A stretch of DNA of 32,662 nucleotides from a virus. The notes beneath the pieces were generated by a model, which was given only the letters and a program-made list of their open reading frames with translations, did not search any database and was not told the origin of the DNA. The stretch is from the IMG/VR virus record IMGVR_UViG_3300030430_001287, positions 2,346 to 35,007 of that record; one strand, 5' to 3'. Of this stretch, positions 61-24,800 are shown piece by piece. Both the position numbers and the translations under genes were made by a program. Position 1 is the first letter of the stretch. Each line of letters starts with the position of its first letter.

Positions 61-74
61 CTTGTCATGACAAG
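61..74. repeat. Early-region palindrome, copy 1
   Basis: This is CTTGTCATGACAAG, a perfect 14-bp inverted repeat. Its last bases overlap the ribosome-binding site AAGGAG (72-77) of the gene starting at 84. A protein bound here could cover the start of the transcript or the translation start region. An RNA hairpin would have only a 5-bp stem and 4-nt loop, so a DNA-level operator is the more likely role. Confidence 0.95.
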
Positions 75-83
75 GAGTCACCC

Positions 84-830
84 ATGATTTTCTACGAAGG
101 CACATCTCAACTCGACGGTCAGCCCATCGTGGGCATCATGACTGGTCATCGCAAACCATCATCCAATCCCAAGACTGGCTTCATGGCTCAGACTTGGATC
201 ATCCGACAAGACATTCACCCATCTGCTGCCATCAAGAGTGGCGAGGACTACAGCATCTGTGGTGACTGCGTGCATCGCCGCGATCCCGCCACGGGCAAGC
301 GTACATGCTACGTCAATCAGATGGGGCCAGCCGCTGTGTTTCGCACATACAAGGCAGGCAAGTATAAAAAACTATCACCTCGGTCGCTGTCTTACGCTCG
401 CTCGCTCCGTGTTGGCTCGTACGGCGACCCTGCCATGATCCCCCTCGATGTCTGGCAGTCCCTGCTTTCTCGCTTTGATCGCTGGACTGGGTACACGCAT
501 CAATGGCAGTGGTGCGATCCTGCATACGCCAAGTTCTGCATGGCATCCGTGGAGTCCGACGAGGACCAGCGGCTCGCTGAGGACTTGGGGTATCGCTGCT
601 TCCGCGTCAGGTCTTGTCATGACAAGCACGACGGCTTCATCACATGCCCTGCTTCCGAGGAGGCGGGCAAACGTACAACCTGCGAACGCTGCACATTGTG
701 CGCAGGCAACTTCGATCACAAATCTGGTAGACCGCCCCACATCCAGATCACTGTGCATGGCGTTGGGGCAAGTTCTTTTCAGGAAGGAGCAAGTCATCGC
801 ACGATCCCACATCGTGTCGTTCAAGCGTGA
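84..830 (+). CDS. Conserved phage protein with cysteine clusters
   Basis: The product is 248 aa. ATG 84 is chosen because AAGGAG (72-77) lies 6 nt upstream; the frame stays open back to a TTG at 24 that has no ribosome-binding site. Seven cysteines sit in metal-site-like groups: C59/C62/C75 near the N terminus and C188/C200/C203/C206 (CxxCxxC) near the C terminus. Blocks such as GSYGDPAMIP (111-120) and TGYTHQW (135-141) look like a family of hypothetical proteins I recall from tailed phages. No enzymatic role can be assigned. Residues 177-181 (SCHDK) are encoded by palindrome copy 2, in a stretch that looks like a variable linker. As the first early gene it is probably made by host RNA polymerase. 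Confidence 0.85.
   Translation: MIFYEGTSQLDGQPIVGIMTGHRKPSSNPKTGFMAQTWIIRQDIHPSAAIKSGEDYSICGDCVHRRDPATGKRTCYVNQMGPAAVFRTYKAGKYKKLSPRSLSYARSLRVGSYGDPAMIPLDVWQSLLSRFDRWTGYTHQWQWCDPAYAKFCMASVESDEDQRLAEDLGYRCFRVRSCHDKHDGFITCPASEEAGKRTTCERCTLCAGNFDHKSGRPPHIQITVHGVGASSFQEGASHRTIPHRVVQA
613..626. repeat. Early-region palindrome, copy 2 (intragenic)
   Basis: Identical 14-bp palindrome inside the first early gene. With the preceding T it reads in frame as Ser-Cys-His-Asp-Lys. Confidence 0.95.
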
Positions 831-969
831 ACTAGTGCAGAAAGCACACGCTGCAAAATCTGCTGCTGCCGTACGTTTGGCACAGCGTCTTTTATCTCAA
901 CACCGTGAGTTACTCACAAGTGAGGAAATCAAATGGCTGGAATCAATCAGCAATTCTCGTTCAACATGA
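757..969 (+). CDS. Small hypothetical basic protein
   Basis: An open frame of 70 aa from ATG 757, bridging the 3' end of the first gene and the start of the next (933). Without it there would be about 100 uncovered bases in an otherwise tightly packed region. The C-terminal two thirds (from about FKRELVQKAH) is helical, rich in Ala, Lys and Arg, and looks like a real small protein. The start is unsure: ATG 757 lacks a ribosome-binding site, and GTG 814 would give 51 aa. A strong AGGAAGGAG lies at 781-789, but no standard start codon follows at good spacing. Function unknown. Confidence 0.45.
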   Translation: MALGQVLFRKEQVIARSHIVSFKRELVQKAHAAKSAAAVRLAQRLLSQHRELLTSEEIKWLESISNSRST

Positions 970-1253
970 CTCTTGATGGCGCACATGCGTTGCACATCGG
1001 ACGGCACTCAGTCATGGGTGAGCCGTTCAAGGAGTTTGGCTACGTCACTCTTGAAGCGACCAACGTACACGCCAGACATGCCAAGCAACTGACCATCTGG
1101 TTTGACAATCGTCTCGATGATGAGGGCCAGTCCGGCTTGACCATCACCGACATCGCACAGTTCGGTTTGTCACTGGCCTCGTGGGCTGCTGACCGCAAGG
1201 CCGAGTCTATCGAAAAGGCAGAAGCACAACTCAAGGAGATTACCGATGCCTAA
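933..1253 (+). CDS. Hypothetical early protein
   Basis: The product is 106 aa. ATG 933 follows GAGGA at 922-926 with about 6 nt spacing. The protein is acidic towards its C terminus and ends in a helical segment rich in Ala, Glu and Lys. No signal peptide, membrane segment or known motif was seen. Its stop codon overlaps the start of the next gene at 1246, so the two are probably translationally coupled. I do not recognise the family. Confidence 0.75.
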   Translation: MAGINQQFSFNMTLDGAHALHIGRHSVMGEPFKEFGYVTLEATNVHARHAKQLTIWFDNRLDDEGQSGLTITDIAQFGLSLASWAADRKAESIEKAEAQLKEITDA

Positions 1254-1581
1254 CAAACACTTCACCCTTTCATTCCAAGCAGACATCAAGGTCAACGAGG
1301 ACATCGAGTACTTGGTGCGGGAACTCAATCACGAGAACCTGTCCAACGGCTCCATGCTCAAGACCAACAAGTCTGAGATTCTTCGTCGCATCGTGTCCGC
1401 TGGACTCAAGACTGAGTTGGGCCGATTGCGTCAACGCAAGATTGCCGAACTTGATCAACTCGTTGGCAACTCTTGTCATGACAAGACCGCTGAAGAAGCA
1501 AGGCAGTACGCCGTCAAAATCACCAACCCCAACATCTACAAGAAAACACAGGAGGCTTACCAAAATGGTTGCAATGACTAA
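1246..1581 (+). CDS. Hypothetical early protein, possible ribbon-helix-helix-like segment
   Basis: The product is 111 aa. ATG 1246 is preceded by AAGGAG and overlaps the end of the upstream gene. Residues 3-18 look like a beta strand followed by a turn. Residues 41-58 (NKSEILRRIVSAGLKTEL) resemble the first helix of Arc/MetJ-type ribbon-helix-helix regulators, where a Ser/Thr-x-Ser-Glu-Ile-Ile-Arg pattern is typical. The match is short and from memory, so DNA binding is only a suggestion. Residues 76-80 (SCHDK) are encoded by palindrome copy 3. Such a protein would be a natural candidate to bind the early-region palindromes, since this fold recognises short inverted repeats as dimers. Confidence 0.8.
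   Translation: MPNKHFTLSFQADIKVNEDIEYLVRELNHENLSNGSMLKTNKSEILRRIVSAGLKTELGRLRQRKIAELDQLVGNSCHDKTAEEARQYAVKITNPNIYKKTQEAYQNGCND
1472..1485. repeat. Early-region palindrome, copy 3 (intragenic)
   Basis: Identical 14-bp palindrome, extended to 16 bp here by a flanking T and A. It is read in the same phase as copy 2, again giving SCHDK, within the gene at 1246-1581. Confidence 0.95.
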
Positions 1582-2431
1582 CCCACCCAAACCCACCCCG
1601 TTCGATCCGGGGAACTGGGGCGACATCGTGGATGACAAGACCATCCAAAACCTTCCCACTCCCACCCAGTATCCGCACACCTACCGCGTGCTGCCTCATG
1701 GCACGTTCGTGGACATGGCGGAGCGGCTCCTTGAGTCTCACGGGTTCACCCTGTCCGAGCCAGTCCACTATGCGGCTGCTCCGGTCAAGAACCCCAAGAT
1801 CAAGGACCACAAGAAGTACGGGAGGTTCCTGTCCCTGTACGGGATCTCTCGGCCTGACCTTCCTGAGACGGGCGACCGTTGGTGGGAGTTTGCCTTGACC
1901 AACTCATACGACATGTCCACACGGGCTGGCGGTGCGTTGGGCGAGCGTGTCCAAGTCTGCTCCAACGGCATGACTCTGGGCAAGGTCGCAGGCAAAGTGT
2001 CCAAGAAGCACATGCGTGGCCTCGGCTCCGAGGATGACGGCTTCGAGTCCCTGTACAACATGCTCGATGCTTGCATCAGCGGCATTCCGTCAGTGGCTCA
2101 GGATCGTGTGCGGCGGGTGGAATGGATGAAGAGTACGGAGTGCAGTGATGACGATGCCAAGCACTGCATCATGGAGGCTGCACGCGAGAGTGTCATTGGT
2201 GCTGCGGCGACAATGCGTGTTCTCAGTCACTGGGAGTCTCCAGAGCATCCAGAGTTCCGTGAACGCACCGTAGACTCGCTCTACAACGCCTTCACCTCCA
2301 ACGACCGTGGTCGCAATGTGATCACGCAAGCGTCCCGCTTCGGGCGGCTCGACAAGATTCTCAACGACCGCTTTGTCCCCGTTGATGTGACCAGTCGCAT
2401 TGATGATTCCCTGTCAGCGGCTGAGTTCTAA
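1565..2431 (+). CDS. DUF932-like phage/plasmid protein
   Basis: The product is 288 aa. ATG 1565 follows AGGAGG by about 9 nt and overlaps the upstream gene by 17 bp; a second ATG lies at 1574. The central block ALTNSYDMSTRAGG followed by ERVQVCSNGM fits the pattern (Asn-Ser-x-Asp ... Val-Cys-Ser-Asn-Gly) I associate with DUF932, a family common on phages and plasmids and of unknown biochemical function. The YPHTYRVLPHGTFVDMAERL segment would be the usual N-terminal part. The gene ends just before palindrome copy 4. It is the largest early gene besides the polymerase, and its role during takeover is unknown. Confidence 0.85.
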   Translation: MVAMTNPPKPTPFDPGNWGDIVDDKTIQNLPTPTQYPHTYRVLPHGTFVDMAERLLESHGFTLSEPVHYAAAPVKNPKIKDHKKYGRFLSLYGISRPDLPETGDRWWEFALTNSYDMSTRAGGALGERVQVCSNGMTLGKVAGKVSKKHMRGLGSEDDGFESLYNMLDACISGIPSVAQDRVRRVEWMKSTECSDDDAKHCIMEAARESVIGAAATMRVLSHWESPEHPEFRERTVDSLYNAFTSNDRGRNVITQASRFGRLDKILNDRFVPVDVTSRIDDSLSAAEF

Positions 2432-2433
2432 CC

Positions 2434-2447
2434 CTTGTCATGACAAG
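2434..2447. repeat. Early-region palindrome, copy 4 (intergenic)
   Basis: Identical 14-bp palindrome starting 2 bp after the stop codon at 2431 and 5 bp before a long hairpin (2453-2497). Confidence 0.95.
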
Positions 2448-2452
2448 ACCGT

Positions 2453-2497
2453 TGGTCTGCCACCCTCAGTTCGAGATGGGCTGGGGGTGGTGGGCCA
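2453..2497 (+). other. Long intergenic RNA hairpin
   Basis: Bases 2453-2469 pair with 2481-2497 in a 17-bp stem with several G-T wobbles and an 11-nt loop; the inner 10 bp (2460-2469 with 2481-2490) contain one wobble. No T run follows, so it is not a classical terminator. The ribosome-binding site AAGGAG of the next gene starts immediately after it. An RNase III-type processing site, as used between T7 early genes, is one possibility; an mRNA stabiliser is another. Confidence 0.6.
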
Positions 2498-2511
2498 GCA
2501 AGGAGTAAAAA

Positions 2512-2775
2512 ATGAGACTACCAAGAAATGATTGGTATGCGTGTACGAACAGCGGGTTCACTCGCGTTGGTCAATGCACGCTTGAAATTGCACGTTCACA
2601 AGCACGACGCATGCTGGGCGAGCAGGAGTTCATTCTGTTCACCGCGTATCAACTGCCCCAACTCAAAAGCCGCGTGGAGAGTACGATGGCGTACCACGAG
2701 GACTTGGAGGAGGAGCATACGGAGAACATGCGTCACGATGCCGAGACAGGCAGAGAGGATCCTGACGATGAGTGA
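2512..2775 (+). CDS. Hypothetical early protein
   Basis: The product is 87 aa. ATG 2512 follows AAGGAG with good spacing, directly downstream of a hairpin. The N-terminal half is mixed; the C-terminal 25 residues are strongly acidic (many Glu and Asp). No cysteine cluster, signal peptide or membrane segment. T7-like phages often carry small acidic early proteins that inhibit host enzymes, but nothing in the sequence points to a target. It overlaps the next gene by 8 bp. Confidence 0.75.
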   Translation: MRLPRNDWYACTNSGFTRVGQCTLEIARSQARRMLGEQEFILFTAYQLPQLKSRVESTMAYHEDLEEEHTENMRHDAETGREDPDDE

Positions 2776-3115
2776 TTACGAACGTATCTACAACAAAGAG
2801 TGTGAGACGGTTCAAGGCGAACTGTTTGACTTCGACCACGTTGCAATCTCCAACGACCGGACTGAGTTGATTCTGCCTGAGGGCAAACTCAAACGCATTC
2901 ACATCAACCAGCATGTCATCCGTGCCAACTCAAAGCGGGAGGAGCGTAAGCCCCCGATCACCATCAAGACCTCCGATGGGAATCACAAAGGCTGGTCGGT
3001 TGACATTCACGGTGTCAGTCAGGTCGTGTATCGTCCCGACAAACCACTCAATTGCGGTGCAAAAGTTTGGATGGAAACCACCGCAGCCGTAACACTTAGC
3101 CTTACTCCAGAGTAA
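2768..3115 (+). CDS. Hypothetical early protein
   Basis: The product is 115 aa. ATG 2768 sits inside the 3' end of the preceding gene, giving tight coupling. The frame is open further upstream to 2528, but that part runs against the preceding gene and has no start signal. The protein alternates short predicted strands with charged turns and contains two cysteines that do not form a recognisable site. Function unknown. It is the last gene before the terminator and the RNA polymerase gene. Confidence 0.75.
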   Translation: MSDYERIYNKECETVQGELFDFDHVAISNDRTELILPEGKLKRIHINQHVIRANSKREERKPPITIKTSDGNHKGWSVDIHGVSQVVYRPDKPLNCGAKVWMETTAAVTLSLTPE

Positions 3116-3134
3116 GATCAACTACCTCCTTGCT

Positions 3135-3148
3135 CTTGTCATGACAAG
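3135..3148. repeat. Early-region palindrome, copy 5 (intergenic)
   Basis: Identical palindrome, 16 bp with its flanking T and A, lying between the last early gene and the terminator. It is 80 bp from copy 6, and the terminator lies between them. Confidence 0.95.
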
Positions 3149-3164
3149 AGTGCTTCACTTGTGT

Positions 3165-3203
3165 CCCCCTGTATGACTTCGGTTGTACAGGGGGCTTTTT
3201 TTT
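3165..3203 (+). terminator. Intrinsic terminator before the RNA polymerase gene
   Basis: A 13-bp stem (3165-3177 with 3182-3194), perfect for the outer 9 bp and with two G-T wobbles near the loop, is closed by a TTCG tetraloop. Eight Ts follow at 3196-3203. This is a classical rho-independent terminator and should stop most early transcripts before the polymerase gene. Any readthrough, or a promoter downstream, would then set how much phage RNA polymerase is made. Confidence 0.93.
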
Positions 3204-3211
3204 GGTATGCT
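3183..3211 (+). promoter_or_regulatory. Candidate sigma-70 promoter for the RNA polymerase gene
   Basis: An extended -10 element (TGG then TATGCT, 3203-3211) lies 17 bp after TTGTAC (3183-3188), a poor -35. Transcription would start near 3218, inside palindrome copy 6, which would place that copy as an operator at +1. The -35 lies within the terminator stem. The match is modest and was made by eye. Confidence 0.4.
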
Positions 3212-3214
3212 GGT

Positions 3215-3228
3215 CTTGTCATGACAAG
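3215..3228. repeat. Early-region palindrome, copy 6, at the RNA polymerase start
   Basis: Identical palindrome (16 bp with flanking T and A). Its 3' end supplies the first bases of the ribosome-binding site AAGAGG (3226-3231) of the RNA polymerase gene, mirroring copy 1 and the first early gene. Confidence 0.95.
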
Positions 3229-3236
3229 AGGTGTGC

Positions 3237-5630
3237 ATGGGTAAAACGCAGCAAGAACTTGAAGCCGAGATGATTGATCTGGGCAAGGAACGCTACCGCC
3301 ACAAGGTGAAGCGGGCCAAAGAAACCAAGATGGAGACAACTACGCCAGTGGGCCGCAACCTGCTGCGTGGTGCTGTGGAGAACTTGGAGCAGGGCATCGA
3401 GACATGGCTGGCTGCGAATCGTCGTAAGCCCGGACGTAGACATCGTGCTGCCCCCTACATCGAGATGCTGCCAGCAGGAGTTGTCAGTGCTATCACATGT
3501 CGGTCGCTGTTGGATTCAATCAGCATGGAGAAAAAAATCACACCCACGGCTGCTGCCATCGCTCGCCTGCTGGAAGACGAGTTGATCTTTCGTGCTGTCG
3601 CTGAACAGGAGCCTGCTCTTTGGAAGCAGATGCACCGCGTCATTGATCGACACAAATCACAAAAGACCAAGAGCAAGTTCATCAACCAGACATTGAAGTA
3701 CCACGAGATGGGCATCAGTCGCTGGGACAAGAAAGATGCAGTCGCTGTCGGCCTGACTCTCATCGAGTTGATGCAGATGTATACAGGCATCATTGAGATC
3801 AATACTCGTAAGGACAACAGGGGCAAATCATACACTTACCTTCGTGCGACAGACGGTATAATGGAGTGGATGAGGAAAGGACATGAGGAGGCTGAGGTAT
3901 TGTTCCCGGTATGGTTGCCATCCGTGGATCGCCCTGTGGACTGGGCCAACCCTTTCATCGGTGGGTACGCAGCCATCAACATCAGGCATCGCCCGCTGGT
4001 CAAGACGCAGGACGCGGCCTACCTCGATGAGTTGGGTGTCACGCCTATGGACGATGTGTACAGGGCAGTGAATACACTCCAGAGGGTGCCAGTCCGCTAT
4101 CACGGCACGGTCGCTGCGGCGGTCCAGTGGGCTTGGGACAAAGCGTTGCCTATTGGTGGTCTGCCCTCAATGGAAGATCACGAGATACCCAACAAGCCTC
4201 TTGATATTGATACAAACAGTGAGGCTCGGAAGCGGTGGCGTAAGGATGCTGCACGGGTTCACTTTGAGAATGAGCGGCAAAAGTCCAAGCGTCTGCAAGT
4301 GATGAAGACCATGCAGGTCATGAATCGCTTCAAAGACAACAGGGTGTACTTCCCCGGCAATCTGGACTTCAGGGGGCGATGGTACTACATACCTCACTAT
4401 TGGCAACCACAAGGCCCACCGTGGACGAAAGCGACTCTGAGGTTTGACAGCGGGGCCAAGATCACGGATTCCGGTGCCAAATGGCTTTGGATCAATGCAG
4501 CCAATAAGTGGGGGCTTGATAAAGAACCCTTTACCGATCGACATAAATGGACCGATGACAATATCGAGATGATCAAGGCGATTGGTAAGGAACCAACGTC
4601 AAATCTGGAATGGACAAAAGCAGACGATCCATTCGGCTTTGTGGCGGCTTGTCACGAAATTTCAGAACTGCACTTGCAGGGGTCCGCGTTTCGCACTACG
4701 CTCCCGATCTCTCTTGACGCAACAACGCAAGGCTTGCAGATTTACTCCATGCTGCTTCGGGATCCAGTGTCCGCCTTGTCTACAAACGTGCTGCCGCACC
4801 ACGAGCCATCTGATACTTATCAGTTGGTGGCTGATCGCGTTATTCAGAAACTCCAAGAGAGTTCTGACTCATACGCAAAGAAGTGGCTTGAGTTTGGCAT
4901 CACCCGTTCATGTACAAAGCGGCAGACGATGACTTTGTGCTATGGCTCCACCTTCTACTCCTGTCAGTCGTACACCGCAGAGTGGTTTTACAAGGAGTTG
5001 CAAGGAGGAAAAGAAAACCCGTTCGTCGATGAAACCTACGCACCGTGTAACTTTCTTGCCGGTCTTATTTGGGAAGCAATCAACGAAGTAGTAGGAGCAG
5101 CACACACTTGCATGGAGTGGCTCAGAGAGTGTGCCAAAGTCATGCTTGAACACGATGTCACACCACGGTGGATGACACCGAATGGCTTTCCAGTCAAGAT
5201 GCGTTACGAAAACTACGACTCACAGACTGTCAAGACAATCGTGGCAGGCAACGTGCGGCGACATCGCATCAACGTCGAGAACGGAACGACAAGTAAACGC
5301 AAAACAGTGAACGGCATCTGTGCAAACCTTGTTCACTCTTTTGATGGCATTGGTGGCATCTTTGGACTGACTCTGTTGAAGTGTTTGGATAAAGGAGTAA
5401 ACAATGTCTTTGGTGTGCATGATGCTGCTTCTGTGTTGGCGACCGACTGTGACCTGTTCAACAAAGCAGTGCGTGAAGCCACCGTCGAAATCTTCAGTGA
5501 AGACTGGTTGGGAAAAATCGAAGAAATGTTCTTGACCCTGTTGCCATCTGGAGTACACTTACCTCCCGCTCCCCAACGTGGGGATTTGGATATCACCAAG
5601 GTGTTAGAGTCACCTTACTACTGGAATTGA
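3237..5630 (+). CDS. Single-subunit DNA-directed RNA polymerase (T7 gp1-like)
   Basis: The product is 797 aa, against 883 in T7. ATG 3237 is preceded by AAGAGG with 5 nt spacing; GTG 3231 is in frame but lies in the ribosome-binding site. The T7-type N-terminal domain is present. Palm and fingers motifs are intact: DFRGRWY near residue 377, the first catalytic Asp in SLDATTQG (D494, T7 D537), motif B RSCTKRQTMTLCYG with K561 and Y569 (T7 K631, Y639), and motif C GVHDAAS with D729 (T7 D812). A T7 surface loop between D537 and K631 is absent. The promoter-specificity region (around GNVRRHRINVENG) differs strongly from T7, so its promoters will not look like T7 promoters. It transcribes the middle and late genes that follow. 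Confidence 0.97.
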   Translation: MGKTQQELEAEMIDLGKERYRHKVKRAKETKMETTTPVGRNLLRGAVENLEQGIETWLAANRRKPGRRHRAAPYIEMLPAGVVSAITCRSLLDSISMEKKITPTAAAIARLLEDELIFRAVAEQEPALWKQMHRVIDRHKSQKTKSKFINQTLKYHEMGISRWDKKDAVAVGLTLIELMQMYTGIIEINTRKDNRGKSYTYLRATDGIMEWMRKGHEEAEVLFPVWLPSVDRPVDWANPFIGGYAAINIRHRPLVKTQDAAYLDELGVTPMDDVYRAVNTLQRVPVRYHGTVAAAVQWAWDKALPIGGLPSMEDHEIPNKPLDIDTNSEARKRWRKDAARVHFENERQKSKRLQVMKTMQVMNRFKDNRVYFPGNLDFRGRWYYIPHYWQPQGPPWTKATLRFDSGAKITDSGAKWLWINAANKWGLDKEPFTDRHKWTDDNIEMIKAIGKEPTSNLEWTKADDPFGFVAACHEISELHLQGSAFRTTLPISLDATTQGLQIYSMLLRDPVSALSTNVLPHHEPSDTYQLVADRVIQKLQESSDSYAKKWLEFGITRSCTKRQTMTLCYGSTFYSCQSYTAEWFYKELQGGKENPFVDETYAPCNFLAGLIWEAINEVVGAAHTCMEWLRECAKVMLEHDVTPRWMTPNGFPVKMRYENYDSQTVKTIVAGNVRRHRINVENGTTSKRKTVNGICANLVHSFDGIGGIFGLTLLKCLDKGVNNVFGVHDAASVLATDCDLFNKAVREATVEIFSEDWLGKIEEMFLTLLPSGVHLPPAPQRGDLDITKVLESPYYWN

Positions 5631-5641
5631 AAGGATTCCCT

Positions 5642-6247
5642 ATGCGACGTACTCTTACCAAGTACACAACCAGCGTGGGCATTGCCCGTTACCCGCACCT
5701 GTCTGAACCGGACACCAAGTTCGACGAAGACGGCGTTTACACCACCCAACTGATTCTCGATACCGATGATGTCGAAGAGTTGGAGGGTTTGATCGAAGCC
5801 GCCAAGAACGAGTTGGCTGACGAGATCCGATCTCAAAAGCCCAACACCAAGTTCAAAGATGGTGCAAGCCCAATCATGGATCACGACGAAGATGCAACCA
5901 AGCGAATCGTCAAGTTCAAACTCAAAGCCAAGGGTGGCAAAGGTTCCGAGACTTGGGACCAAAAGCCAGCCATCTTCGATGCCAAGGCAAAGCCCTTCAC
6001 CGGCAGCGAGAACATCGGCGGCGGAAGCAAGATCAAAGTGTCCTGCGAGATCGTCCCCTACCACACTGCATTGGCTGGCCTCGGTGTCTCACTCCGACTC
6101 AAGGCTGTGCAAGTGATCGACCTCGTGGAGTTCACCGGCAAGACTGGTGATGCTTCGGCTCACGGCTTCTCAGAAGAAGAAGGTTTTGATTCAAGTAGCG
6201 TGGAGACTCAGACCTCCCATGCTACCGACGAAGACATCCCCTTCTGA
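5642..6247 (+). CDS. Single-stranded DNA-binding protein (T7 gp2.5-like)
   Basis: The product is 201 aa, against 232 in T7. ATG 5642 follows AAGGA with 7 nt spacing. The body is a beta-rich OB-fold-like domain starting RRTLTKYTTSVGIARYPHL. The end is an acidic, flexible tail rich in Ser, Glu and Asp finishing in DEDIPF, the tip type with which SSB proteins recruit partner replication proteins. It should coat single-stranded DNA at the fork and coordinate the primase-helicase and polymerase. It lies directly downstream of the RNA polymerase gene and its 3' end overlaps the resolvase gene. Confidence 0.9.
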   Translation: MRRTLTKYTTSVGIARYPHLSEPDTKFDEDGVYTTQLILDTDDVEELEGLIEAAKNELADEIRSQKPNTKFKDGASPIMDHDEDATKRIVKFKLKAKGGKGSETWDQKPAIFDAKAKPFTGSENIGGGSKIKVSCEIVPYHTALAGLGVSLRLKAVQVIDLVEFTGKTGDASAHGFSEEEGFDSSSVETQTSHATDEDIPF

Positions 6248-6689
6248 TCAAGTATCCTTTCTTCTCCGTCCAGACGGCTCACACCTAGTCTGGATACCAG
6301 TGGAACCTGTCCCTGCCTCAAGACCCCGTGTTACGAGGCAGGGCAGGGTCTACTACGGAAAGAGATACACGGCATTCCGAAAACAAGTGGAGACTTTGAA
6401 GGATGCATCGACACTGCCAGACATGTTCCCCCTCAGTGGGTGGATGACCATGTTCGCCAGTTTTTACTTGCCTTCTCCCAAGAAGACAAATAGATTGGCC
6501 CCCCGTGGTGACGTTGACAACTTTTTCAAAACCCTCGACTCGTTCAATCGGTTCTTGTGGTATGACGATGATCAAATCATTTGTTCAACCACCACGAAGC
6601 AATACGGGGACACCCCCGGCATCCTGATTGGAGTGAAAGAAGTTGAGCGAATTCCTCAGACACGAGCCTTGTCCCAAGTGTGGGAGTAA
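6219..6689 (+). CDS. RusA-like Holliday junction resolvase
   Basis: About 156 aa from ATG 6219, overlapping the SSB gene by 29 bp. The start is uncertain, because the next in-frame candidate, GTG 6300, would cut into the conserved first strand (WIPVEPVPASRPRV). The RusA pattern is clear: APRGDVDNFFKTL supplies D98 and D100, and WYDDDQI supplies D116-D118, matching the Asp residues that bind metal in RusA (known D70, D72 and D91 in E. coli RusA). It should cut branched DNA formed during replication and clear junctions before packaging. T7 has the unrelated endonuclease I (gp3) at this place in the gene order. Confidence 0.88.
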   Translation: MLPTKTSPSDQVSFLLRPDGSHLVWIPVEPVPASRPRVTRQGRVYYGKRYTAFRKQVETLKDASTLPDMFPLSGWMTMFASFYLPSPKKTNRLAPRGDVDNFFKTLDSFNRFLWYDDDQIICSTTTKQYGDTPGILIGVKEVERIPQTRALSQVWE

Positions 6690-8596: not shown

Positions 8597-10286
8597 CATA
8601 GAGACGAATGCAATCAAGGACTTCAACACACTGTGTGGCCTGAAGACTTGTCATTGCATTGCCATGAGCATCGACGGGAAAGACCCCGTGATCATGGAAA
8701 ACGGTGACGCACTGCAACTCATGCAGGAAGCAGAAATGCTGATCGGGCACAACATTATGAAGTTTGATCTTCGTGCCCTCAAACGTCTGTACCCCGACTT
8801 CAACTACCAAGGCGAAGTGCGAGACACTCTGGTGATGAGCCGTTTGTTGTTTGGTGATTTGATGTCAACTGATCACCAATCTATTGATTTCCCAAAGAAA
8901 CTAATGGGTAGTCACTCACTCAAAGCGTGGGGTGTCAGGCTGGGCATCCACAAAGGCGACTTTGGTGAGGACACTGATTGGGCATGCTTCACGCCGGAGA
9001 TGGCTGAGTACTGCAAGCAGGACGTAGCGGTAACCGCTGCTCTCTGGAAGCGGATTCAAGAGGAGGATCCTGACTTCCGCCCCACCCAACTGGAACACGA
9101 CTTCGCGGCAATCATTCACGCACAAGAGATCAACGGATTCGTGTTCGACGGAGAAAGGGCTAGAGCCTTACACTCCACGCTGCTCGATGAGAAGTGCCGC
9201 ATCAAAGAGCAACTCCAAGAAGTCTTCCCACCAGCCATCATCCAGTTGAAGACAAAGACAAAAGAAGTACCGTTCAATCCCGGCAGTAGAAAGCAAATCG
9301 CGGAGAGACTGATTGAGAAGTATGGGTGGGAACCTGCTGACTACACCGAATCTGGACAACCCAAAGTAGATGAATCAGTACTAACGTCCCTCCACTACCC
9401 CGAGGCCAAGTTGGTTGCCAGATACTTGCTTGTCAACAAGCGTCTGGGCCAACTGGCTGAGGGGGAGAACGCATGGCTTAAGTTGGAGAAAGGGGGTAGG
9501 ATCCACGGCTCTGTGAACCCATGTGGTTGCGTGTCTACGCGATGCACACACAGCAAGCCCAACATGTCTCAAGTCCCCAGCGTAGGCTCCCCGTGGGGTA
9601 AGGAGTGTCGTGAACTCTTCACGGTGGAGCCGGGAAACGTGTTGGTGGGTGCAGATATGAGTGGGTTAGAGTTGCGTATGTTGGCTCACTATGTGCATCC
9701 GTATGACCAAGGTCGATACACTGCGGAAATCCTTGATGGCGACATCCATACAGCAAACCAAGAGGCGGCGGGACTTGAGACTCGCAACCAAGCCAAAACC
9801 TTTATCTACGCCTTCTTGTATGGAGCGGGTGATGAAAAGATTGGCTCCATCGTTGGCGGTGGTCGTACTGCTGGTCGCCGCATCAAAAAGCAGTTTCTTC
9901 AGAGAATGCCCGGCATTCAAAAACTACAGCAAGCCATCAAGACTGCGATTCGGCAACGCCCGCATCTGGTGGCCCTTGATGGACGGAAGTTGAAGATTAG
10001 GTCAGAGCATTCTGCCTTGAACCTTCTACTCCAATCGGCTGGGTCAATCGCCATGAAGAAAGCCACAGTCAACTTGTGGAACTACATCAGTCACATGCCA
10101 AACATCAAAGCCAGACAGGTGGCTCATGTGCATGACGAGATGCAGATTGAGTGTCGTGAAAGTCAGGGGGACGCGGTAGGTAAATTGGCTGTGGATGCTA
10201 TGAAAGATGCCGGTGATGATCTTGGTGTCAAGTGCCCTCTAACAGGAGAGTACAAGATCGGTTACAATTGGGCTGAGACACACTGA
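8574..10286 (+). CDS. DNA polymerase, family A (T7 gp5-like)
   Basis: The product is 570 aa, against 704 in T7. ATG 8574 has AGGAG upstream. The 3'-5' exonuclease is complete: FDIETN (D8, E10), GHNIMKFDLRAL, and EYCKQDVAVT. The polymerase motifs are complete: GADMSGLELRML (D361), motif B AKTFIYAFLYGAG (K408, Y412, Y416), and VHDEMQIE (D521). Tyr412 is at the position of E. coli Phe762 and T7 Tyr526. The thioredoxin-binding insert that T7 carries just before its FNPSSR block is missing: here only about 15 residues separate EVFPP from PFNPGSR. Processivity must therefore come from elsewhere. It replicates the genome with the neighbouring SSB and primase-helicase. Confidence 0.97.
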   Translation: MPKKIIFDIETNAIKDFNTLCGLKTCHCIAMSIDGKDPVIMENGDALQLMQEAEMLIGHNIMKFDLRALKRLYPDFNYQGEVRDTLVMSRLLFGDLMSTDHQSIDFPKKLMGSHSLKAWGVRLGIHKGDFGEDTDWACFTPEMAEYCKQDVAVTAALWKRIQEEDPDFRPTQLEHDFAAIIHAQEINGFVFDGERARALHSTLLDEKCRIKEQLQEVFPPAIIQLKTKTKEVPFNPGSRKQIAERLIEKYGWEPADYTESGQPKVDESVLTSLHYPEAKLVARYLLVNKRLGQLAEGENAWLKLEKGGRIHGSVNPCGCVSTRCTHSKPNMSQVPSVGSPWGKECRELFTVEPGNVLVGADMSGLELRMLAHYVHPYDQGRYTAEILDGDIHTANQEAAGLETRNQAKTFIYAFLYGAGDEKIGSIVGGGRTAGRRIKKQFLQRMPGIQKLQQAIKTAIRQRPHLVALDGRKLKIRSEHSALNLLLQSAGSIAMKKATVNLWNYISHMPNIKARQVAHVHDEMQIECRESQGDAVGKLAVDAMKDAGDDLGVKCPLTGEYKIGYNWAETH

Positions 10287-21855: not shown

Positions 21856-24800
21856 ATGGCTAAAAGACCACAAAAACGATCTGGTGATTTGCAGGCTCCG
21901 GCCCTCAATGCACCACAGTTGGGTGTCACTTCACAGCCTGTGGACACTCGTGTTACTCCAGCAGCAAACGCACCGCAGGCTCCACAGTTGTTGCCAGAGC
22001 CAGCCAAGCCTGACATGCAGGGTGCGAGAGACTTGGAAAACATGGGCCGTGCCTTGGGCGATCTGTCTAAGACACTGTTTGGTTACGCACAAGTCAGTAA
22101 GGAAAGAAGGACACAAGAGAAGAAAGACACTCGTGACGAGGCTCTGCGGAGACTCCGAGAGGGAGCAAAGCCCTTTGAGGAGATGCAGAAAAAGGGCGAC
22201 CTTACTGGTGCTACTCCTCCTCAGTTGAAGGGTGTCAGCATCGCTTACGGCACTTACGCGGTTGAGCAAGCAATGCTGGACTGGCAGCAGCAAGTTGAAA
22301 CTTTGCGAGCAGACCCCGGATATCTAAAAGCAGATGGCTGGCAGTCACACCTAAGCGAAATCCTGCAAAAACGATACAACGAGTTTGCGGGTCTTGTCAA
22401 AGCGGGTGGTCGGCCTGATGCTTTTAACCGTGCATTTAACAGGCTGGCAAAAAATGCCCAAGATCGAGTCCAAGCAGATCATGCACGTTGGTTGCAAGGG
22501 GCTGCGGAAGATAAGCGGCAGGAAGGCGTTCGTGGCGAAATTCGCATGATTTTGGGGAATGCTCTTGATGATGCAGACAGTTTTGATCTAACCACTCCAC
22601 AAGGAGAAGCCGATTACGCACGGGCAGTTACTGATCAACTCAATGTTTTGTTGCAGGACGGCTACGGGCAGACTTACTCTGAAGATGCTTATCCCACAGT
22701 CTTTGGCAAAGCCTTGATTGATCTTGCAGCAATGGAAGACTCGGTTACCGAAATTGCGTTGTTTGCTTTGAGCAACCCAGACCTTGGTGACCTGCTTCAG
22801 AATAACCAAGAAGTTCGTGAGTACTTCTTTGCCAATGAAAACAAAATTAATGATGTTCGATTAGCAGGCCGAGGTCGAACGGCACAGGCTCAGGTTACTG
22901 GCTACGCGGGAACAGTTGAAGCCAGACTGCTCGAAAGTTTTGGCAATGTCTTTAGTGTTGATGGTCGAGGTAAGGATTCACTTCCCGCAGCACTTGGTGG
23001 CGACCCTATTGCGATTATTTCTGGAATTATGGAAGAAGCGGAGCAAGGTAGTACGAACAACGTGACCTTTTCAATAGACGCTTCAGGCCTCAACGTGACT
23101 CTTCAATCTGTCCTTGACCCAACTAAAACAGCAACCATCAATATTAAAAATGCTTACGAGTCAGCAAGACAGACGGCAATCAACAACTTCATCGGGGACG
23201 CTGGTCCTGCGGCAGAAGCACTTGCGGCTGACAGGTTTGGAACAATTCCAAGATCAGTAGCCAAAATTCAATCCGGTATTGCTGCAATCCGTAGTTATAC
23301 ACCACTGGATGACCCAGAGGCGAACGCAAATGCTCTTAGACCAATTGCAGAGGCTTACGATCTTTGGGCTGCATACAACACTCGGATGCACTCTCGTCAA
23401 TTGACTACAGATGCGGGAGTTGGAGAACAGGGTGAGTTGCTGATGCGTGCAATCCACATGTTGGTGCGGCAACCTGAAAATGCACTCACAGTTCAAAACG
23501 CGGCAGCAAGAGTTTCCGATAGATTCCGTCGCTTAGAACAGGAACTTCCAAGCATTTCAACGGGTGCAACATTTAGCGAAGAACTTGCAAAACGAGTCAC
23601 ACCAGATCAAGAAGAAAATGGTGATGACTTGGTTATCAAGAGACTGGCTCAAGTCTTTATGTTCTTAGGAGGTTCGGACAATGCAGGTGATGGACTTCTA
23701 ATTACTCCTGATCAAGCCATTACTGACGCAATGGAGTTTTTGGAAAGCCAAACTTTCTTCGTTGGAGGAAGCCGTCAGTACTACGCAAATACACCAATCC
23801 AAATTGAAGACACTCGTAGAGTTTCCACAGGTGATTACACCAACAGAGACTTGGAGTTGGCTCAACGGCTGCTTGGGTCAGAGAAACCTGAGGGGCTAAT
23901 TGTTGAAGGCATTGCTAAAGGTCATGTTGGAGGATTTTTGACTGAAGACATGATTGCGGAGTACTCCGAAGGTTCTGATAAATTCAAAGTGCGTGCATTT
24001 GTTCCTGCGGACAGCAGCATGACTTCATTCAGGGTTGAAATGAAAGATGACTCGTATTTGGACAATGGCTCGACGTTTAGCATTGCCCAACTGATGGCGT
24101 ACAAAAAATCCTACCAACTTAAGTTGAAATATCCAAAGGGTCCGCCAGATCCAGAAAAAGTTCGACAAGGTAAAGAACTAGCCGAAACCTTGGCAATTGT
24201 AGACGCGCTTGATGACCCTAATGCAAGAGAAGAAGCAAGAAGGCAGGCATTTGCCGACGCAAACCGACGAACAGTACAACGCCGCGAGCAAGCCAAAAAA
24301 GATGCAGCAGATGAAGCAGAAAGAGAAAAAATTCAACGCGATTTTGACAACGCATTTATTGAAGAGGGCATGATTGCTCTCCTTTCTACTAGCCGTGAGG
24401 GCCGGACCATTTTGGCTGACACTCTTTCGTTGAGTGGACCAGATGTAACTGTGTTGCAACAGGTAGCCCCAGATGACTTTGGTGATCTTCAGCCCGGAGA
24501 AGTTACGCTTCCAGCCGGAGATGCACTAACTGCATTGAGGCGATTTAATGAGTCTCGGCTGCCTCAAGCAAAAGCCATCGCAGAACGAAAAGGTGGGTTG
24601 CCTGAACTGGCTCGGAGACTTTACGATAAGGACTTCCGAGGTAACCCACTGCAAGACGATAACTTTGATCTTCGGATGACTTTGACCTCTCCCGCAGCCT
24701 TGCTTGCTTACCAAGACTTGTCACAAGAAGTAAAGGAGGCATTGGGGGAAAACTTTGCGTGGATGGGCGATGCTTCAGTTCCACTGCCTGAAGTGTTTAG

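Follow-up and report, generated by a model that had tools for sequence, protein, structure and literature searches.

A palindrome repeated along the early region of a T7-like phage and replaced by other palindromes in its relatives: candidate operators of a phage regulator

We have analyzed a stretch of 32,662 nucleotides of viral DNA, the window, which covers positions 2346–35007 of the 35,007 base IMG/VR record IMGVR_UViG_3300030430_001287. The phage is called G000 here and its full record L065; other L numbers denote further records, contigs and loci. Its early region contains identical copies of a short perfect palindrome, CTTGTCATGACAAG, which we call a dyad. An earlier note, based on the window, had taken them for dispersed operators of early transcription. 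Here we describe these copies, the dyads found at the same places in related phages, and the gene which may encode the protein that binds them.

Genome and early region

G000 is T7-like in gene content and order. It contains an RNA polymerase, a gp2.5-like single-stranded DNA-binding protein, a RusA-like nuclease, a T7-type primase-helicase, a family A DNA polymerase, an exonuclease, a connector, a scaffold, a capsid and a tail protein. It belongs to the T7-like phages with a single-subunit RNA polymerase (Autographiviridae type). Among the matches listed, the closest RNA polymerase of a cultured phage is 34.9% identical. The features of the early region are given in Table 1. One of its genes, g3, aligns to the C-terminal half alone of phrog_2554 (287–523 of 529), a family with relatives in mycobacteriophages, Klebsiella and marine phages.

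Table 1. Features of the G000 early region (window coordinates, unless the record is indicated)
Feature	Position	Strand	Remarks
Gene 1, 233 amino acids	record 1061–1762, left of window		First early-region gene, between two strong predicted promoters
Run of 10 N	record (L065) 2336–2345		Adjoins the left edge of the window, within the early region; presumably a scaffold gap
Dyad copy	61–74 (record 2406)		Before g3, runs into its Shine-Dalgarno-like AAGGAG
g3, 248 amino acids	84–830	+	phrog_2554 (unknown function); one dyad inside
Dyad copy	613–626		Inside g3, read S-C-H-D-K
g5, 111 amino acids	1246–1581	+	Ribbon-helix-helix-like by eye, no profile match; one dyad inside
Dyad copy	1472–1485		Inside g5; the likely g6 start (1565) follows about 80 bp later; relatives have a different dyad nearby
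Dyad copy	2434–2447		2 bp past the g6 stop codon
Dyad copy	3135–3148		Between g8 and the terminator preceding the RNA polymerase gene
Intrinsic-terminator-like hairpin	3165–3194	+	13-bp stem, TTCG loop, T run; separates the last two dyads; consensus match
Predicted host-type promoter of RNA polymerase gene	3183–3211	+	TTGTAC, 17 bp, TATGCT, extended -10 TGG; overlaps terminator arm; consensus match only
Dyad copy	3215–3228		Centred at +4, on the transcription start predicted for the RNA polymerase gene
Single-subunit phage RNA polymerase	3237–5630	+	phrog_414 (E 1.4e-209); borders the dyad region on the right

Dyad copies in G000

The record contains 15 exact copies of CTTGTCATGACAAG, at positions 310, 355, 475, 520, 639, 838, 1007, 1828, 2031, 2406, 2958, 3817, 4779, 5480 and 5560. 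All of them are confined to its first 5,573 bases and either precede the RNA polymerase gene or stand at it. The earlier note had described the six copies of Table 1, three of them extending to 16 bp, with none in the other 29 kb. This description is correct: the copies at window 1472, 3135 and 3215 extend to T...A, and the sole further match in the window with up to three mismatches is found at 24717, with three. Its count was too low for the early region as a whole, since nine of the 15 copies stand left of the window, where its reader could not see them. No copy with one or two mismatches is found in the 35,007 base record. As the note had stated, chance does not account for the set: none of 200 dinucleotide shuffles had any palindromic 12-mer more than once, against 15 observed.

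According to our gene calls, two of the 15 copies lie within genes (window 613 in g3 and 1472 in g5), the other 13 being outside. A T precedes 14 of the 15 copies, and an A follows seven.

Two strong promoters are predicted in the record, TTGACG-17-GACAAT at 939 and TTGACA-17-GACAAT at 1949. Each is followed by a dyad, with centres at +40 and +54; together with the one at +4, dyads are thus found at three of the four best predicted promoters of the first 5,700 bases. Compared with random positions, sites are closer to promoter-like sequences in G000 (p 0.004) and in its relative L071 (p 0.011), where the sites at 8681 and 13268 are upstream of a predicted start. Near the place of the predicted RNA polymerase promoter of G000, its relatives L069–L071 have a similar extended -10 (TGnTACACT).

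The left end of the phages with this palindrome (L065 1–1060; L026 3040–4098) consists of about 1 kb of T- and G-rich DNA, rich in TTG, with no evident gene. In L065 this segment contains 107 TTG versus 33 CAA, and seven of the 15 dyads of G000. In L069 and L071 only a short gap is found at this place. The dyad before gene 1 (L065 1007–1020, L026 4047–4060) has flanking arms, ACTGGCCC/GGGCCAGT in one phage and CAGGCCT/AGGCCTG in the other. By eye, these arms are complementary with changes on both sides, which suggests a possible larger hairpin.

Dyad types in related phages

Relatives were gathered by searches with gene 1, g3 and RNA polymerase. We call CTTGTCATGACAAG type A, found in G000, L066 and L026. 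L066, whose RNA polymerase is 98% identical, shares it at three places. L026 is a fragment that extends as far as gene 1; five of its copies are exact, and a sixth differs by a single change. Two other contigs with 98% identical RNA polymerase, L067 and L068, start within that gene and are thus uninformative on dyads.

Phages with 85% identical RNA polymerase have no CTTGTCATGACAAG: they contain different dyads instead. Type B, CTGGGACGTCCCAG, is present at 10 sites in the L069 record (nine exact, one with one mismatch). Type C, CTGTAGCACTACAG, is present at seven sites in the L070 record (four exact and three others) and at nine in the L071 record (seven exact and two others). The sites form one cluster in each record, and in G000, L069, L070 and L071 the clusters stop at the start of RNA polymerase.

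Further dyads are found in relatives at 51–59% RNA polymerase identity. TCGGAGASTCTCCGA, type D, has eight sites in L122, two of them with a changed centre, and 12 in L144. TCGGGGAWTCCCCGA has 11 in the L120 record and three in the L121 record, and CGCACASTGTGCG has three exact copies and one variant in L119. CTGGGGATACCCAG, type G, is found three times in L143 and once in L141. Type H, TTTGGACATCCAAA, appears once each on L140, with 85% RNA polymerase identity, and L146, two contigs from one sample series. In all, seven dyad types are repeated at least three times within a record, and of the eighth two contigs have one copy each. No dyad is found in L142, a member of the 51–59% group with an integrase. 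This contig contains an asymmetric element, CCCACACTTCCC, five times at four places (5050–6531), mostly just before gene starts.

Ten cultured T7-like phages, at 31–35% RNA polymerase identity, have no dyad with 6-bp arms present at least three times, and two of the ten have a dyad with 5-bp arms four times. Of 45 loci of the g3 family, three are in the L069–L071 records; by that test the other 42 have no dispersed dyad, with local clusters in L088, L093 and L115. When the best 80 loci of a scan with the HNH protein were considered, a dyad present at least eight times was detected, among the 79 new ones, only in L151, which is the L071 record, and in L175. The latter (IMGVR 3300030333_005533) lies outside this group and contains a longer dyad, TACCGCANNTGCGGTA, eight times over 5 kb (703–5541), in seven cases within ACG...CGT; it is possibly an independent dispersed-operator system. 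A scan of viral contigs for the palindrome of G000 gave at least 60 stretches, and 58 of 60 have a single site, which looks like chance; L026 and L036 are the exceptions. The RNA polymerase alignment gave 122 pattern matches in species genomes and no relative.

Matching positions in different phages

The earlier note had named conservation of position in relatives as a check of its proposal. Sites are indeed found at matching places, but the palindrome which occupies them differs. For example, the copy after g6 falls in one alignment column in G000, L069, L070 and L071, with flanks that are recognisably related and cores that are different. The dyad within g3 always falls at one position of a conserved protein, where it is read SCHDK in G000, SGTSQ in L069 and SVALQ in L070 and L071. 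A similar case is the DNA polymerase gene of the more distant relatives: further downstream, two different dyads lie at one place in L119 and L144, and the L120 record has a third, as judged by matching translation.

Alignments allow us to compare the sites with their surroundings. Within a type, sites hardly change. G000 and L066 have three shared sites with 42 of 42 positions identical, versus 90% elsewhere; L070 and L071 have seven, with 96 of 98 positions identical versus 93% elsewhere. Between types B and C, with five shared columns, only 42 of 82 site positions are identical, versus 78% elsewhere. Near-invariance within a type together with replacement between types points to a sequence-specific partner, and to a change of this partner. 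As far as sequences can tell, this pattern requires recognition by a specific partner whose specificity changes.

Gene 1 as a candidate regulator

Identity between types A and C is 98% for the primase, 95% for the DNA polymerase, 92% for g6 and 85% for the RNA polymerase. When G000 is compared with L071, the early genes g2–g8 all give tblastn matches, with 59–93% identity. Gene 1 of G000 has no tblastn match at E<0.01 in L069 or L071, while the L070 contig begins past this slot. Among the early genes, it alone shows no detectable similarity when dyad types A, B and C are compared. In this slot, the five left ends with a complete gene (G000, L069, L071, the L120 record and L144) code for a protein of 226–262 amino acids, and a dyad precedes each gene. 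In the type A fragment L026, the first 34 residues are 94% identical to gene 1 of G000. The link between gene 1 and dyad type rests on five different types and this partial pair of the same type.

Gene 1 is the best candidate for the partner of the dyads, not by proof but because of exclusion and position. Gene-1 proteins of different types are alike by eye only, with a helix-turn-helix-like stretch followed by a helix. A model of the trimmed central part of the G000 protein has helices in a helix-turn-helix-like arrangement, and its fold neighbours are mostly generic DNA-binding helix bundles (Z up to 5.3). This is weak support for a helix-turn-helix protein. No tblastn match at E<=0.1 to gene 1 of G000 is found in 50,697 phage records, where the L5 repressor was not directly compared, and gene 1 of the L120 record has no match in these records either.

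Two other genes were considered as the specificity factor and rejected. The likely DNA-facing strand of g5, TLSFQ by eye, is the same in types A and C though their dyads differ, and no profile matches this protein. As for g8, it differs between G000 and L066, both of type A (66% identity over 141 columns).

Alternative explanations

The earlier note had argued for a dimeric DNA-binding protein and against an RNA hairpin. That the copies within a genome are identical does favour a partner which reads the sequence, and some of the sites precede predicted promoters. Nevertheless, these sequences can also form short hairpins in RNA, and their symmetry is not enough to decide between DNA and RNA. 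The centre of the dyad favours DNA: it is symmetric in types A and B, and in type D the centres of L144 are six G and six C, with no strand preference.

The dyads might act in RNA, as transcript hairpins. A phage protein or RNase specific for their sequence would bind or cut them and in this way process or silence the early mRNAs of individual genes; T7 has comparable sites for RNase III. Seven test strings of types A–E fold as hairpins with -4.5 to -9.6 kcal/mol, many sites are directly before ribosome-binding sites, and the unequal flanks of type A (T before 14 of 15, A after seven) are a feature of one strand. We find this rather unlikely. One of the three type A strings folds no better than its own shuffles (z -0.34), and a loop does not need the symmetric centre of types A and B. 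Sites upstream of predicted promoters, two of the 15 in the middle of genes, and six that lie, within non-coding DNA, to the left of the first strong promoter predicted speak against a transcript signal. Moreover, recognition by structure alone does not need a single identical sequence at 15 places.

The sites may also be centromere-like, or serve packaging or end protection, with a ParB- or KorB-like protein coating the genome end that enters first and regulation being secondary. Nine of the 15 copies are found in the first 2.1 kb of the record, a region which adjoins the terminase end in L026, and a weak match to a ParB-like PHROG (E 0.0024) is seen with gene 1 of L144, though with no other gene 1. 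This match covers residues 150–229, outside the proposed DNA-binding part. In addition, the sites track gene borders as far as the RNA polymerase gene; in relatives with an integrase, some lie beyond it. Such a role is unlikely.

Capture of sites of a host regulator, each type following the site of its own host, would account for different dyads in close relatives if their hosts differ. We have scanned 84,980 species genomes for the 16-bp form of type A, TCTTGTCATGACAAGA, the only form scanned. It was found in 41 stretches, once in each, which is about the number expected by chance; two of them come from one draft genome (Blastopirellula NAT61). Besides, replication proteins are 95–98% identical between types A and C, as expected for the same or close hosts. 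We consider a host origin quite improbable.

A small mobile palindrome of the repetitive extragenic palindromic (REP) kind, spread by self-copying into the early region, is very improbable: strict identity with no degenerate copies does resemble a recent spread, but relatives have another dyad and not an empty site at the matching place (five columns shared by types B and C), copies within genes keep the reading frame, and site 355 of G000 is absent from L026 without a clean gap.

We have rejected promoters of the phage RNA polymerase, because no dyad is present downstream of the polymerase gene in the G000 record. The most frequent 13-mers of that part appear at most twice each.

Proposed mechanism

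Dispersed operators acting on the early region, as the earlier note had proposed, are the best-supported reading, although its view of the phage as lytic and its dismissal of RNA hairpins have to be modified. Probably the phage itself encodes a regulator which recognises the palindrome as its operator in a sequence-specific manner. The most likely regulator is a dimeric repressor that binds DNA, the product of gene 1, which would silence the early region and confer superinfection immunity. Gene 1 would be made first, from a host promoter. Its product would bind the 15 dispersed dyads, located at promoters, between genes and inside genes. Bound repressor could block both initiation and elongation by the host RNA polymerase throughout the early genes, as far as the gene of the phage polymerase. 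After takeover by the phage polymerase, this would result in early shut-off. In a cell which already contains a phage of the same type, early transcription would be kept off, which amounts to superinfection immunity. The dyad-rich end of the genome presumably enters the cell first, as one end of the T7 genome does, so that a second phage of the same type could be stopped in this way. We infer gene 1 as the binder, recognition at the level of DNA, repression as the effect, and selection for immunity as the driving force of specificity change.

Several results weigh against this reading. The only pair of gene 1 sequences from the same type is partial. Homology between gene-1 proteins of different types is not established, with a best blastp E of 0.006 and hhalign results little above controls, and no match in profile and family searches calls gene 1 a repressor. 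The single-sequence model of the full-length protein is poor (predicted local distance difference test, pLDDT, 46), while the trimmed central part is moderate (mean pLDDT 67). Foldseek gives no match to the model at E<=0.001, and the best VIA neighbour is DeoR with its operator, with Z 5.3 and a root-mean-square deviation of 3.3 over 52 residues, a level which the tool calls common. In L069, sites are not significantly close to promoter-like sequences (p 0.444). The unequal flanks of type A, and centres of types C and E which are mostly in one orientation, hint at directionality. Matching positions also have exceptions. G000 and L026 share six site columns, with site 355 of G000 lost in L026, and 88 of 97 positions are identical versus 92% elsewhere: there is no excess. 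Types A and B share only two exact columns, others being near but offset, and the type D pair, L122 and L144, shares one.

Lysogeny is doubtful in this clade, because its records contain no integrase. No match to the tyrosine integrase family (PF00589) was detected in the records of G000, L066, L069, L070, L071 and L140, six of six, which may be incomplete. To this extent the lytic T7 architecture proposed in the earlier note agrees with the close clade. The more distant relatives are different: the records of L119, L120, L122, L142, L143 and L144 all have a match (six of six), and five of them have a repeated dyad. In L119, L144 and the L120 record, sites are also found beyond the point where the RNA polymerase gene begins, which a prophage might require.

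We may go one step further, tentatively: these phages would form a T7-like clade with a lock of operators and regulator, and on at least six occasions one specificity of this lock would have given way entirely to another, with positions kept even inside codons. In the branch without integrase, strong selection might maintain the lock, and dispersed operators would then provide immunity without lysogeny, in the form of superinfection exclusion and early shut-off in virulent phages.

Comparison with known systems

The nearest documented system is that of the stoperators of Cluster A mycobacteriophages. In L5 and its relatives, many short sites are found at promoters and in short intergenic spaces, and the motif varies with the repressor between related phages, according to the parts of these studies considered here (PMC6550527, PMC9283540). 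G000 also has many dispersed copies of one short site, most of them outside genes. On the other hand, the sites of L5 type are described there as asymmetric 13-mers in one orientation, while we find perfect or nearly perfect dyads of 13–15 bp. Their motifs are mutually similar in the same accounts, while the types described here share little beyond the outer bases. The T7-like gene order and the presence of an own RNA polymerase are further differences. A stoperator-type system has also been reported, in the part of the source considered, for the Streptomyces phage R4 (PMC10276819).

For the temperate T7-like phages LUZ100, HTVC019P and CRP-113, control of lysogeny by a MarR-type protein has been proposed; the integrase precedes the RNA polymerase gene and the proposed repressor sites flank its promoter, as far as the part of the source considered and the record annotations indicate (PMC10134795). 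The integrase-bearing relatives of G000 are T7-like as well. Nevertheless, the MarR family (PF01047) is found in none of 11 records, and in 14 of 14 control genomes. No title among the literature matches listed, which leave most subscription journals outside their scope, refers to dispersed dyad operators in T7-like phages; in the parts of the sources considered, the MarR proposal is the only one we have met.

Two other systems have features in common with G000. In the Streptomyces phage phiC31, conserved inverted repeats are bound by the phage repressor. As in G000, the operator is symmetric and the early region has many conserved copies. However, phiC31 is an unrelated phage and its repeats are intergenic, while G000 also has copies inside genes. 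In close relatives of phiC31, replacement of all the repeats by others at the same positions is not known to us. In plasmid RK2, a single helix-turn-helix protein, KorB, represses through short palindromes dispersed over the replicon. KorB belongs to the ParB family, to which gene 1 has no convincing match.

Significance

The set of palindromes is real and far from chance: it is a new form of dispersed-operator control, in which regulator and effect are candidates proposed from sequence. How a repressor with many operators changes its specificity without loss of function is described as poorly understood, in the part considered of a study on superinfection immunity (PMC6550527). The phages described here provide a natural series for this question: close relatives have quite different, nearly homogeneous sets of operators at matching places, with one candidate gene changing along with them. 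They could yield orthogonal pairs of repressor and operator, and gene 1 would add a regulator other than MarR to the T7-like phages.

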